Under the pieces are notes generated by a model. The model saw nothing but the letters and a program-made list of their open reading frames with translations. It was not told where the DNA came from and made no database searches. Source: Verrucomicrobiia bacterium (GTDB taxonomy: Bacteria; Verrucomicrobiota; Verrucomicrobiia; Limisphaerales; JADLHS01). Taken from it: a stretch of 64,000 nt of DNA. Both the position numbers and the translations under genes were made by a program. This document shows, in pieces, positions 35,270-37,969 of the stretch (positions within the stretch are counted from its first letter, which is position 1; each line of letters opens with the position of its first letter). The stretch spans positions 228,661 to 292,660 of the forward strand of contig JAHCLO010000003.1 of NCBI GenBank assembly GCA_026125285.1. Direction: 5' to 3'.

Positions 35270-35464
35270 TCATGAGCAAGCGTGGAATCGGGTTCTGGTG
35301 GCAAACTCGTCCAGTCTCTCGCCTTCGCCGAACTCAAAGTGGTCCAACCGCTTTTCCAGTTCATCCAACCGCAACAGAATGCGGCCGTTCTGGCGGAGCA
35401 GTTGCCAGCTGAACCAGCAAAGCGCCAAGAGGACCGCCCCAGTCGCTGTGAGCAGCAGGGTCAT
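35270..35464 (-). CDS. 64-aa membrane stub homologous to the MauD-like anchor
   Basis: Encodes MTLLLTATGAVLLALCWFSW followed by QLLRQNGRILLRLDELEKRL and a short tail ending in FHACS. The helix plus coiled segment are nearly the same as the N-terminus of the double thioredoxin protein at 32648-34030 (QLLRENGRILLRLDELENRL), but no thioredoxin domain follows. The ATG overlaps the TGA of the cysteine-rich gene upstream as ATGA, so translation is coupled. It is either a truncated paralogue or a small membrane partner of the thioredoxin protein. Confidence 0.68.
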   Translation of the reverse strand: MTLLLTATGAVLLALCWFSWQLLRQNGRILLRLDELEKRLDHFEFGEGERLDEFATRTRFHACS

Positions 35465-35805
35465 AATGTGAACGAACAAGGCGAATTCCTTTTGTAGCAT
35501 CCGCATGGCGCATCCGTGACTCCGCCATTGACCGCCTTGCCCCTTGGAGAATCCGGAGAGGCCGTTGCAATGCAGCCATTGGTGTCTAGGCAAAAACCAT
35601 CGTAAGCCCATTTGTAATGGAATTTCTGCGTGGACACCGCTCGGACACTGCAATAACCGGTGTGTGTTGCAGCTTTTGCCTGGTTCGCCGGCTCGAAGCA
35701 GGCCAGCGCCATGCCCGCGAGACCGACACCAAATTTCTTCAACGCTGCACGGCGGGTTAGCGATTGGACCAGGCTCTTGGCGAGTTCATCGAACGCGTTG
35801 CTCAT
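35461..35805 (-). CDS. Tat-leader cysteine-rich secreted protein (69-aa cargo, 6 Cys)
   Basis: A 114-aa precursor. The first 45 residues are the shared leader, with SLTRRAALKKFGVGLAGMAL and a cleavage-like site after NQAKA. The cargo of 69 residues has six cysteines (GYC, FC, GC, PCGC, PC), an even number that suits three disulfides, and aromatic stretches (KFHYKWAYDGF). I do not recognise the cargo family. A start nine codons upstream is possible, but the chosen ATG gives a leader of the same length as its neighbours. It overlaps the stub gene that follows. Confidence 0.75.
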   Translation of the reverse strand: MSNAFDELAKSLVQSLTRRAALKKFGVGLAGMALACFEPANQAKAATHTGYCSVRAVSTQKFHYKWAYDGFCLDTNGCIATASPDSPRGKAVNGGVTDAPCGCYKRNSPCSFTL

Positions 35806-35980
35806 ACGGTTCAGTTTATTTGTTGCCATGTTGGCCTCCCAGTTGCCGGCGGGCAGCAGCAGTCAGGAAATCCTCATGAATCTGTAGATTCGTCCAGACG
35901 CAACCTGATACGCACCCACGAAATCCCCCGCGTTGAGCCGGCCCCAACTCCCAACATGGCGAAGCCGTCAGCGTGTCGAC

Positions 35981-36223
35981 TCAGCGGCACGCTACAAGGC
36001 AATAATTCCGACATTCGTACTCTGACCAGGTAGGATATTTGCGAAGGCACTGCCTGATGCAGATCTCGCATTTGGGCTCCTTCTTTGCCGCCTCTGCCCG
36101 GTTCGCCAGTCCAAAGCAAGCCAGCGCCATGCCAGCCAGGCCGAAGCCGAATTTCTTCAGCGCCGCCCGCCGCGTGACCGATTGGGCCAGGCTTTTGGTG
36201 AGTTCGTCGAATTGGTGATTCAT
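35981..36223 (-). CDS. Tat-leader cysteine-rich peptide, helical-hairpin-like (6 Cys)
   Basis: An 80-aa precursor with the 45-residue leader (MNHQFDELTKSLAQ, SVTRRAALKKFGFGLAGMAL, ending NRAEA). The 35-residue cargo has the spacing C-x2-C-x3-C-x11-C-x3-C-x3-C. The two C-x3-C units joined by 11 residues are the arrangement seen in alpha-hairpinin peptides, with one extra outer cysteine pair here. Charged residues are frequent (KKEPK, IRQ, LRK). Function unknown; a secreted antimicrobial, inhibitor or signalling peptide is possible. Confidence 0.72.
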   Translation of the reverse strand: MNHQFDELTKSLAQSVTRRAALKKFGFGLAGMALACFGLANRAEAAKKEPKCEICIRQCLRKYPTWSEYECRNYCLVACR

Positions 36224-36281
36224 ACTGTTGCTTCCGTTTTGGTTGTTTGTTGTTCGTTGGGAAAGTGGGATTAACGTGCGG

Positions 36282-37253
36282 CTAGATTTCACCAGCTTCA
36301 ACCCGCGCAATCACATCGTTGATGAAGTCGAGGACCAAGGCCGTGTCCACCCGGCAATTGTGGCCGTTGGTCAGGGTGCCGCGACAAACGACGGCCACAA
36401 AGGTTTCCTGGCTTGTAACTGGGTCCACAAAAAACAATGGTCCTCCCGAATCGCCTCTGCTGCTCGCCCCGTTATCACGCTCCTCGGTATACAACCATTG
36501 ATCGTGGAGATTCCGAAATTCGATTTGCGCCGATCGGCGGTGTCCATCCGGAGGAAACGGTTGGTGCCCATAATTGTTATCACCCGCATCAACCCCATAA
36601 CCAACGACCGTGAACCCGGTTCGATCTGAAGTCGTCTTCAGTTTGCCGGCGTCCTTCAGGGCATCCAAAACATTCAAGGTCGGCAATGGAAGCGGAGTGA
36701 TTCCCGCGACCGGTTCATCGAAGATCAAGACCCCCACGTCGGCTCCGCCGCTGGCCCCGTTGCTGGGATTGTTGACGAAATCCGGGTGAGTCAACATGCC
36801 GGAAACGGGTCGCCACGTGCCGGGGTCGGTCGCGTCGGCGGCGAAACTAACGAGGAGGTCGTCGAGGGTCATGGCGCCTTGTGCCATGAGGCTTTCGACG
36901 AGCAGCGTTCCATGTCCGGCGGTGAGGTACACGCGGGGATGAATCAGCGTTCCGGATCCGCCAAACATCGGCGCTGGTATTCCCGGGATTGGGCTTACCA
37001 ACCACACCACGCCTCCGACATTGGGATGCGCATCGCCATCGAGTTGCCCGTTGGTGATAGCATGGGCTTCGCGCAGTCCGAGCCGCATCAGCGCCATGCC
37101 CGCAAGGCCGACGCCGAATTGCTTCAGCGCCGCGCGGCGCGTGACCGATTGCGCCAGGTTCTTGGTGAGTTCACCCCGTGAGAGAGCGGCCGGCGGTCGC
37201 CGAAAGCTCAGTGAGCAGTTTCTCTCACGGGGTGAATCGAATTGGTGGTACAT
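36282..37253 (-). CDS. Tat-leader trypsin-like serine protease
   Basis: A 323-aa precursor of the S1 (trypsin) family. The catalytic triad is visible: LTAGHG (His about 114), GGADVGVLIFD (Asp about 172) and RGDSGGPLFF (Ser about 269). The chain after the leader begins ITNGQ, similar to the IxNG/IVGG end of mature trypsins. The leader ELTKNLAQSVTRRAALKQFG matches the neighbouring cysteine-rich precursors but is interrupted after MYHQFD by 21 residues encoded by a palindromic repeat. It may process or accompany the cysteine-rich peptides. Confidence 0.88.
   Translation of the reverse strand: MYHQFDSPRERNCSLSFRRPPAALSRGELTKNLAQSVTRRAALKQFGVGLAGMALMRLGLREAHAITNGQLDGDAHPNVGGVVWLVSPIPGIPAPMFGGSGTLIHPRVYLTAGHGTLLVESLMAQGAMTLDDLLVSFAADATDPGTWRPVSGMLTHPDFVNNPSNGASGGADVGVLIFDEPVAGITPLPLPTLNVLDALKDAGKLKTTSDRTGFTVVGYGVDAGDNNYGHQPFPPDGHRRSAQIEFRNLHDQWLYTEERDNGASSRGDSGGPLFFVDPVTSQETFVAVVCRGTLTNGHNCRVDTALVLDFINDVIARVEAGEI
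37170..37236. repeat. Palindromic repeat inserted in the protease leader
   Basis: Perfect 16-base inverted ends TTCACCCCGTGAGAGA (37170-37185) and TCTCTCACGGGGTGAA (37221-37236). Compared with the uninterrupted leader genes, the net insertion is 63 bp, a multiple of three, so the reading frame is kept. Confidence 0.88.
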
Positions 37254-37346
37254 ACTTATTCACTTTTCGACCTATGCCCTCATTAGCGACCCGCGACCTC
37301 TCAACTGCAAGCCCGCGCGCAGGCCGCGTGAGTTTTCGCGTGGCAT

Positions 37347-37604
37347 TCAGGTGCAGTAGCCGTGTTTACTTATGCCGAGCGCGATGGGGGATCTGTTACA
37401 GAAGCCACTACAGCATTGATTCCCGTTCGAACACTGGCTACCACTGGGCCCGCAGTTGCCTTTCCCGCCCGCTTCAGTTTTGTTCGCCAGCCCGAAGCAG
37501 GCCAGCGCCATGCCCGCGAGGCCGAGGCTAAATTTCTTCAGCGCCGCGCGGCGCGTGACCAATTGGGCCAAACCCTTGGTGAGTTCATCGAATTGGTTGT
37601 TCAT
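37347..37604 (-). CDS. Tat-leader cysteine-rich peptide, knottin-like (6 Cys)
   Basis: An 85-aa precursor with the 45-residue leader (MNNQFDELTKGLAQ, LVTRRAALKKFSLGLAGMAL, ending NKTEA). The 40-residue cargo has C-x6-C-x5-CC-x3-C-x14-C, which is the cysteine framework of inhibitor cystine knots (knottins), with a slightly long last loop; segments are NCGPSGSQCSNGNQCCSGFC and HGYC. It is Gly/Ser/Asn rich as many knottins are. It is the first gene of the run on this strand. Function unknown. Confidence 0.75.
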   Translation of the reverse strand: MNNQFDELTKGLAQLVTRRAALKKFSLGLAGMALACFGLANKTEAGGKGNCGPSGSQCSNGNQCCSGFCNRSPIALGISKHGYCT

Positions 37605-37969
37605 ACTTGGTCGTTCCATTTGTGCGACCCCTCGCGAGGTCACGGTTGTTCGTGTATTGCTTCAGCATGGGCTGTTACCCCTTACAACAGGAAAGCCGGA
37701 AGAACCTTACAGAGAATTTTCAAGCCTCCGAGATTCAGCGCGGCAAGGGGAATTTGGCGGTTCCGGTGGCTGGTCTCAATTCAGGGAGCTTGGGTTACCG
37801 GGTGAACTTTCCCTGAACAAATTGGCCCATCGAACCGCTCGACGGAAGCTGGCGTTGTAGCGCGGGCGTCCTCGCCGGCGGGTTCGGGCGGCGTCCCGCC
37901 GCCAGTGGAAGGGACGCGCACCGGGACGGTGCTGGAACCCGCAGCCGGGGGACGACTGCTCTACGGGGT

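Follow-up and report, generated by a model that had tools for sequence, protein, structure and literature searches.

The window considered here, the whole 64-kb stretch of DNA that was analysed, is G000:C23:228661-292660, part of a source genome (G000) of 7.16 Mb in 79 contigs. Positions 35461-37643 of its minus strand hold four adjacent ORFs that have a Tat-like leader in common and whose mature parts are unrelated and partly cysteine-rich. A Pfam Conotoxin match to one of the four falls below the cut-off and is probably an artefact of the cysteine pattern. The features to which we refer are as follows, with their basis in brackets.

36282 to 37253, minus strand: host gene, a trypsin-like serine protease (weak Pfam match) with a Tat-like leader and 21 inserted residues (ORF and Pfam)
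37170 to 37236, no strand assigned: 67-bp palindromic element (repeat search, family scans and leader alignment)
37170 to 37185, plus strand: left 16-bp arm, TTCACCCCGTGAGAGA (repeat search)
37186 to 37220, no strand assigned: 35-bp spacer (folds and spacer comparison)
37221 to 37236, minus strand: right 16-bp arm, the same sequence as the left arm on this strand (repeat search)
37347 to 37604, minus strand: sister gene with the uninterrupted leader MNNQFDELTKGLAQLVTRRAALKKF (leader alignment; ORF listed from 37643)
35981 to 36223, minus strand: sister gene with the uninterrupted leader MNHQFDELTKSLAQSVTRRAALKKF (leader alignment; ORF listed from 36310)
35461 to 35805, minus strand: sister gene with the uninterrupted leader MSNAFDELAKSLVQSLTRRAALKKF (leader alignment; ORF listed from 35829)

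The palindrome consists of two arms of 16 nt each (37170-37185 and 37221-37236), 100% complementary and 35 nt apart, as a preliminary description had claimed in placing perfect 16-base inverted ends at 37170-37236. The arm 16-mer occurs exactly twice in the 64-kb window. The layout is TTCA plus the arm CCCCGTGAGAGA, the 35-bp spacer, and the complementary arm plus TGAA; the element measures 67 bp with both terminal tetranucleotides but adds only 63 bp net because one of the two is native. Read from the sequence, the left arm TTCACCCCGTGAGAGA is by itself a small imperfect hairpin (TTCAC-CCC-GTGAG), and folding allows two further small hairpins in the single-stranded spacer, which is unlike the spacers of other copies. 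The palindrome as a whole is strikingly stable, both as plus-strand DNA (z = -6.6) and as coding-strand RNA (z = -7.2), and in neither case was any of 200 shuffled sequences equally stable.

The host ORF, of 323 aa on the minus strand, reads open across the palindrome as MYHQFD-SPRERNCSLSFRRPPAALSRG-ELTK. Its Pfam Trypsin match (E 0.0057) lies under the Pfam cut-off, and the twin-arginine motif of its leader, TRRAALKQF, was judged Tat-like by eye; the 21 inserted residues precede this motif. The leader was aligned with those of the three sister genes in the window (starts at 37604, 36223 and 35805) and with three leaders from the related genome G008, which are grouped together there on contig C93. 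A 63-bp insert of 21 codons, located at TGAA, is absent from all six related leaders, and the site changes from ..TTCGA-TGAA-CTC.. to ..TTCGA-[TTCACCCC..GGGG]-TGAA-CTC... A search of 96 genomes for orthologues of the protease returned no full orthologue, only leaders and one 44% paralogue in its own genome, and the before-and-after comparison therefore rests on the leaders.

Much of this had been anticipated in the preliminary description, which held that the insert splits MYHQFD from ELTKNLAQ, that it adds 63 bp net, or 21 residues, without changing the frame, and that three sister leaders are uninterrupted. The ORF and the alignment agree on each count, and the alignment extends the last of them with the three leaders of G008. 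The connection with GIY-YIG nuclease elements, set out below, lay beyond that description. The same description inferred that a palindrome had moved into the gene and left it open, an inference that gains from the six empty leaders and from the dispersal of the family in the genome. It would have been overturned by the same 21 residues in orthologues from distant species, but these residues are missing from six related leaders and no orthologue was found in 96 genomes. From sequence comparison, then, it is well supported that a mobile palindrome was inserted in frame within what appears to be a Tat-like leader; there are no data on export function.

The palindrome belongs to a family dispersed through the source genome. 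The arm 16-mer, with at most two mismatches, is found at 26 sites, compared with one for the reversed-pattern control, and the degenerate arm TTYRCCCCRTGAGAKA, with the same tolerance, at 97 sites, compared with 15 for its reversed pattern. Near these matches lie 38 arm pairs, of which 35 are non-redundant under later criteria, and the search for further genomic copies that had been proposed in advance was thus successful. Twelve copies are 103 bp long, five 67 bp and four 68 bp, with the remainder between 39 and 106 bp and one of 283 bp, giving main length classes of about 40, 67 and 103 bp. Two end types dominate, TTYA/TRAA and CTYG/CRAG. As read from the sequence, the GTGGG/CTYG arm type contains no stop codon in any frame, and the TTCA/GTGAG arm contains TGA in one frame. 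Copy length leaves a remainder of one on division by three in 23 of the 35 copies, many of them paralogous, and in 58 of 123 copies in other genomes, but this excess is weak evidence because the length classes themselves favour it.

Several copies sit within ORFs that remain open. An HpnJ-like radical SAM ORF of 453 aa on contig C12 (L034, 1104-2465) contains two in-frame palindromes; the NCBIfam HpnJ model matches it in three stretches, below cut-off, and finds no match for its own N-terminal part. The N-terminal part of this ORF, in turn, has no HpnJ match and includes a segment similar to another repeat of the source genome. Several 103-bp copies lie inside open ORFs that look YD-repeat-like by eye, for which Pfam gave only Glucodextran_B, below cut-off. 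A host is broken at locus L025, where a stop follows the left arm. For one 67-bp copy there is an independent empty/filled pair in ahcY (SAH hydrolase): the gene is intact on C40 (L055), where it is cut by the contig end, and a degenerate, 92%-identical copy on C47 (L037, 2600-3230) carries the insert together with a 39-bp palindrome. Genome G003 has a broken ahcY with the same 39-bp palindrome at the same site as C47. Codon-score calls on host genes in the source genome carried too much noise for most copies to be classified and served only as a guide. Separately, a Y1_Tnp match on contig C37 (L050, 20687-20911) lies in frame within an open DnaE (DNA polymerase III alpha) ORF, and this Y1 (IS200/REP-like) domain has the finger domain on one side and the helix-hairpin-helix motif on the other.

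The family extends well beyond this genome. The exact arm is present in 19 of 146 related genomes, the source genome included, compared with a single site for the reversed control. In a collection of genome contigs, the paired pattern CCCCGTGRGATA-N8..38-TATCYCACGGGG was found in at least 107 stretches, and among the matches listed the record names include Verrucomicrobia, Kaiserbacteria and other Patescibacteria, KSB1, Acidobacteria, Deltaproteobacteria, Bacteroidetes, Ignavibacteria, Planctomycetes, Omnitrophota, Elusimicrobia and others. Lengths in 80 of the at least 107 stretches peak at 66-69 and 40-47 bp. Over the loci pooled up to L173 the length classes are 38-58, 64-70, 100-109, about 130 and 280-289 bp, and no pair of CCCC arms was found between about 135 and 280 bp. 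We also observed a 186-bp element of intermediate length with CCCGTTAGAGATA arms (L176, 6647-6832), in which no nuclease ORF was recognised. Within one genome, the arms are near-identical across copies and the spacers differ; across 49 pairs of copies with related flanks, arm identity is 88-100% and spacer identity ranges from 10 to 100%. The 103-bp copies have flanks and spacers in common.

A rule for the ends of the element is shared by short and long copies alike. The tetranucleotide beside the element is TGAA/TTCA or CGAG/CTCG and is repeated at the far end, usually in inverted orientation. When the outer tetranucleotides of 123 elements from other genomes were compared, 26 elements had inverted ends, 22 had palindromic ends and 12 had direct ones, set against 6.8, 5.4 and 0.5 for randomly re-paired ends; complementarity beyond the outer four bases falls to 21-38%. 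The ends of the window copy, TTCA/TGAA, are of the inverted type. At the known empty sites (the six leaders and ahcY, with YhcG inferred from the reading frame), only one of the two tetranucleotides was there before, and its partner was added. The family is thus characterised by inverted arms of 12-16 bp, few length classes and an adjoining tetranucleotide repeated at the other end.

The same arms also bound longer elements, of about 280 bp, whose only gene encodes a GIY-YIG nuclease. Wider-spaced arm pairs yielded elements of 277-291 bp with a single ORF of ~86 residues, and the source genome itself carries an intact example of 283 bp with one GIY-YIG ORF (G000:C4:167990-168272) and, where contig C24 ends, a partial one. 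PF01541 (GIY-YIG) matches L009, a source-genome copy, with an E value of 2.6e-13. In most of the long elements the stop codon of the nuclease lies inside the right arm (..YLTG-stop); in L132 the ORF is broken by one TAG. An AlphaFold model from seven members of the nuclease family (pLDDT 89, pTM 0.79) has as its closest structural matches UPF0213 BH0048 (E 7.7e-4) and Slx1 (E 1.5e-3 and weaker), the latter a branched-DNA nuclease.

Four genomes have a long element inside a gene for a YhcG-type nuclease (L064, L065, L066 and L207), and in all four the Pfam YhcG_C model matches in two stretches, one on either side of the insert. The host ORFs measure 445 aa in L064, 491 aa in L065, 308 aa in L066, where the 5' end is open, and 506 aa in L207, and no stop interrupts the host frame as it crosses the nuclease gene in the +2 frame of the latter. 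The net inserts are multiples of three; that of L207 combines a nuclease element with a short palindrome in tandem, 336 bp net. When the seven arm-bounded nuclease genes are compared with synonymous shuffles, they contain fewer +2-frame stops (shuffles with equally few make up fractions of.045,.022,.086,.048,.785,.053 and.044; combined p = 0.0006, and 0.0016 for the YhcG cases alone), set against a mean fraction of 0.47 for 28 armless relatives. This openness is not universal: the +2 frame has three stops in L172 and one each in L009 and L132. Elements with a GIY-YIG gene and other inverted repeats were seen, by eye, apparently at the 5' ends of tRNA-like sequences (L274, L275 and L283), and others at or just before downstream start codons (L237, L240, L245, L247 and L252), that of L240 lying between ORFs that by eye are pheS- and pheT-like.

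The link between nuclease and arms was assessed in 50 nuclease loci inspected in element-bearing genomes (L236-L285), which are not all of the profile matches. The gene is bounded by inverted repeats scoring at least 11 in 22 of these, compared with 9 of 408 control ORFs (p 5e-17). A further locus, L250, would have made 23 but was set aside as a self-palindrome, and three of the 22 were already among the earlier loci. The bounding repeats are other than CCCCGTGAGATA in 17 of the 22, comprising six that are ATCCCGTTAGAGATA-like, two that are GACCCTGTTAAAT-like and nine others of mixed kinds. Mapped onto a tree of 66 nucleases, repeat type requires 11 changes, compared with 25.4 when shuffled, and none of 200 shuffles was as low; the tree was built from 84 columns and many of its forks are unresolved. 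Short relatives, of 58-66 bp, exist for the CCCGTTAGA and ACCCTGTTAAAT repeats too. The nuclease profile matches in 30 of the 38 other genomes with short elements, the remaining eight having no match at E 1e-10, and a nuclease with a matching CCCC arm was seen in only four of the 38 (G568, G565, G550 and G559), with not every match inspected. No nuclease match was found in collections of phages and plasmids, and viral contigs gave two matching loci. Spacers compared by eye, without a formal test, gave no match of a 35- or 71-bp spacer to the nuclease gene of which it might be a remnant. A general claim that GIY-YIG genes have arms was considered and rejected: a phylum-wide search of 387 genomes, 45 of them with a match, gave 30 loci, of which only two, in the source genome and in G379, have an exact 13-bp repeat.

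We regard it as probable, on balance, that the palindrome in the window is a short, non-autonomous, REPIN/RPE-like relative of a mobile element that encodes a GIY-YIG nuclease, mobilisation by that nuclease being inferred. That the nuclease serves as mobility enzyme for full-length elements and short arm-only copies alike is also an inference, drawn from linkage alone.

Ownership of the arms by a different enzyme has to be considered. The palindrome could be a REPIN, an inverted REP pair moved by a RAYT (Y1 tyrosine) transposase, with the GIY-YIG gene a mere passenger sheltered between the arms. The architecture of inverted ~16-mers, diverse spacer and hairpin is the same as far as REPINs are described in the available part of PMC3116915. 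The source genome has 11 Y1_Tnp matches, and Y1 (REP/IS200-like) transposases occur in 36 of the 38 other element-bearing genomes, that is, in more of them than the nuclease does, so that co-occurrence favours Y1 if anything and a RAYT as owner of the arms is not excluded. REP systems usually flank their RAYT, yet the 1.5 kb around each of the 11 Y1 loci in the source genome contain no convincing arm pair. With the type of inverted repeat tracking the clade of the nuclease, with many copies inside genes and with no Y1 match in G553 or G557 (both draft MAGs, the second also without a nuclease match), we think a RAYT origin unlikely. It could also be supposed that the nuclease is a homing endonuclease, whose spread by gene conversion is limited to matching alleles or paralogues, and that the short palindromes are immobile copies decayed by internal deletion. 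Such decay is hard to reconcile with short copies at many different sites with unrelated flanks and spacers, with narrow length classes that leave the range of about 135-280 bp empty among CCCC-arm pairs, with the short relatives (58-66 bp) of other arm types, or with an end rule that holds for short and long copies alike. We judge homing improbable, even though GIY-YIG is a classic family of homing nucleases (PMC1564403, in the part available), full-length copies are found repeatedly in YhcG, a single host family, and some copies, those of 103 bp with their common flanks and spacers, have spread with paralogues.

The remaining readings concern the product of the host gene. The 21 residues could be an old functional part of the protease leader and the palindrome a coincidence; in favour of this, the frame is open and the residues are placed before the twin-arginine motif, where length may be tolerated. 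This reading is already contradicted by the six related leaders that are without them, by the dispersal of the same arms across the genome and by a fold far more stable than that of shuffled sequences, and we give it almost no credence. An action of the hairpin in mRNA, for example in regulation or in translational bypassing of the insert, has in its favour the great stability of the RNA hairpin and the ahcY insert on C47, which, as read from the sequence, has TGA followed by a repeated ACC codon, an arrangement reminiscent of a bypass signal. The protease insert, however, is simply open and the spacers are not conserved, and the C47 ahcY is a pseudogene, with other lesions and without the N-terminal part, beside an intact ahcY on C40. 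Bypassing or splicing of the ahcY insert was rejected because of that intact gene and the degeneracy of the C47 copy, the 39-bp insert of G003 also lying in a broken ahcY, and a role in mRNA seems very improbable.

If the palindrome is indeed a satellite of the nuclease element, its movement might be envisaged as follows. The arm hairpin, whether formed in single-stranded DNA or as part of a cruciform, would be recognised by the Slx1-like nuclease and nicked at its base. Once freed, the hairpin would end in the four nucleotides TTCA, complementary to TGAA, and could pair with TGAA in an exposed target strand, which would set the 3' end of the hairpin against the target, leaving the host to seal the nicks by ligation. 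Pairing of TTCA with TGAA would give rise to the inverted, complementary ends, whereas direct ends would need a staggered double-strand cut instead. Copies that interrupt a needed gene would be expected to persist only if the host frame remained open, the outcome in the protease being, on this scheme, the addition of 21 residues before the twin-arginine motif. Against involvement of the nuclease as we propose it stand the mere four of 38 genomes seen with a matching CCCC arm on a nuclease, the eight without a profile match, the wide occurrence of Y1 transposases and the +2-frame stops of L172, L009 and L132. GIY-YIG enzymes are hydrolases, and the strand-joining step must therefore come from elsewhere; in addition, short copies also break genes, as with the stop in the L025 host and the ahcY on C47. 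No movement of the elements has been observed.

Mobile palindromes that keep the reading frame have been known since those of Rickettsia, and how they move has remained open, partly for want of a coding relative. The arms described here also bound one small nuclease gene, which therefore becomes a testable candidate enzyme for movement of the palindromes. If the nuclease does move them, the elements would be among the smallest self-mobilising DNA elements, with no need of a transposase, and if the overlapping frames of the YhcG insertions are what they seem, they would represent a rare case of a mobile gene shaped for read-through by its host. A more general proposal can be ventured, one that we hold only tentatively and would not be surprised to see fail: that elements of ~280-300 bp, with a single-domain GIY-YIG nuclease as sole gene and no transposase of their own, move themselves and arm-only satellites of ~40-103 bp in many bacterial phyla by way of hairpin or cruciform intermediates, and that one branch has evolved a second ORF through its own gene, allowing host translation across it.

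Several known systems resemble these elements in part. In the portions available of PMC2229807 and PMC3733652, in-frame palindromes are described from protein genes of Rickettsia, Wolbachia and Methanocaldococcus, and the present family shares with them an in-frame palindrome in a protein gene, hairpin potential and an open host frame; one property of an RPE, a palindrome in a protein gene with the frame kept open, is shown by the 63-bp insert in the 323-aa ORF. RPEs, however, are of 105-146 bp (PMC2229807), as opposed to main lengths of about 40, 67 and 103 bp here, where a 4-nt end recurs, and arms that also bound a nuclease gene are not reported for them in those portions of the two papers. 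REPINs, according to the accessible text of PMC3116915, have two inverted ~16-mers, a less conserved spacer of set length and a single-stranded hairpin. The requirement of two inverted REP-like ends with a spacer, forming a hairpin, is fulfilled here, but REPINs are extragenic according to the same text, whereas many of the present copies are inside genes (the protease ORF, the HpnJ-like ORF twice and the YD-repeat-like ORFs). As regards RAYTs, the source genome has no Y1 gene flanked by the arms but does have an arm-flanked GIY-YIG gene. Like MITEs, the family pairs short arm-only copies with a longer coding element that ends in the same repeats, here found in the same genome (G000:C4:167990-168272); it differs in that the coding element has no recognised transposase, a GIY-YIG nuclease being its sole ORF, and in that inverted 4-nt terminal repeats outnumber direct ones.

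The rRNA genes of CPR bacteria provide a further possible parallel: GIY-YIG genes occur there within insertions that fit neither the group I nor the group II intron type and were judged to lie outside homing, beside short insertions of less than 200 bp without an ORF (PMC11270868, in the part available). A term search of the available text of that paper found neither 'inverted repeat' nor 'palindrom'. To judge by titles and the beginnings of abstracts in the open-licence literature, we found no description of arm-bounded GIY-YIG elements with short satellites. The long relatives, though not the window copy, qualify as GIY-YIG proteins by their Pfam domain, which they share with the homing and UvrC/Slx1-type enzymes, and their predicted fold is closest to UPF0213 BH0048 and Slx1. 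They differ from these in consisting of a single domain of ~86 residues, in their bounding inverted repeats of 14-22 bp and in their many non-allelic sites; spread confined to cognate alleles without terminal repeats, as expected of homing, does not describe a family with repeats at 22 of 50 loci and many unrelated sites. Dunin-Horkawicz et al. (2006) ask, in the available part of PMC1564403, whether other members of the GIY-YIG superfamily are molecular parasites. A mobile palindrome lying in frame is, by itself, of an already known kind; what is new is that its arms are held in common with an element whose only gene is a nuclease.
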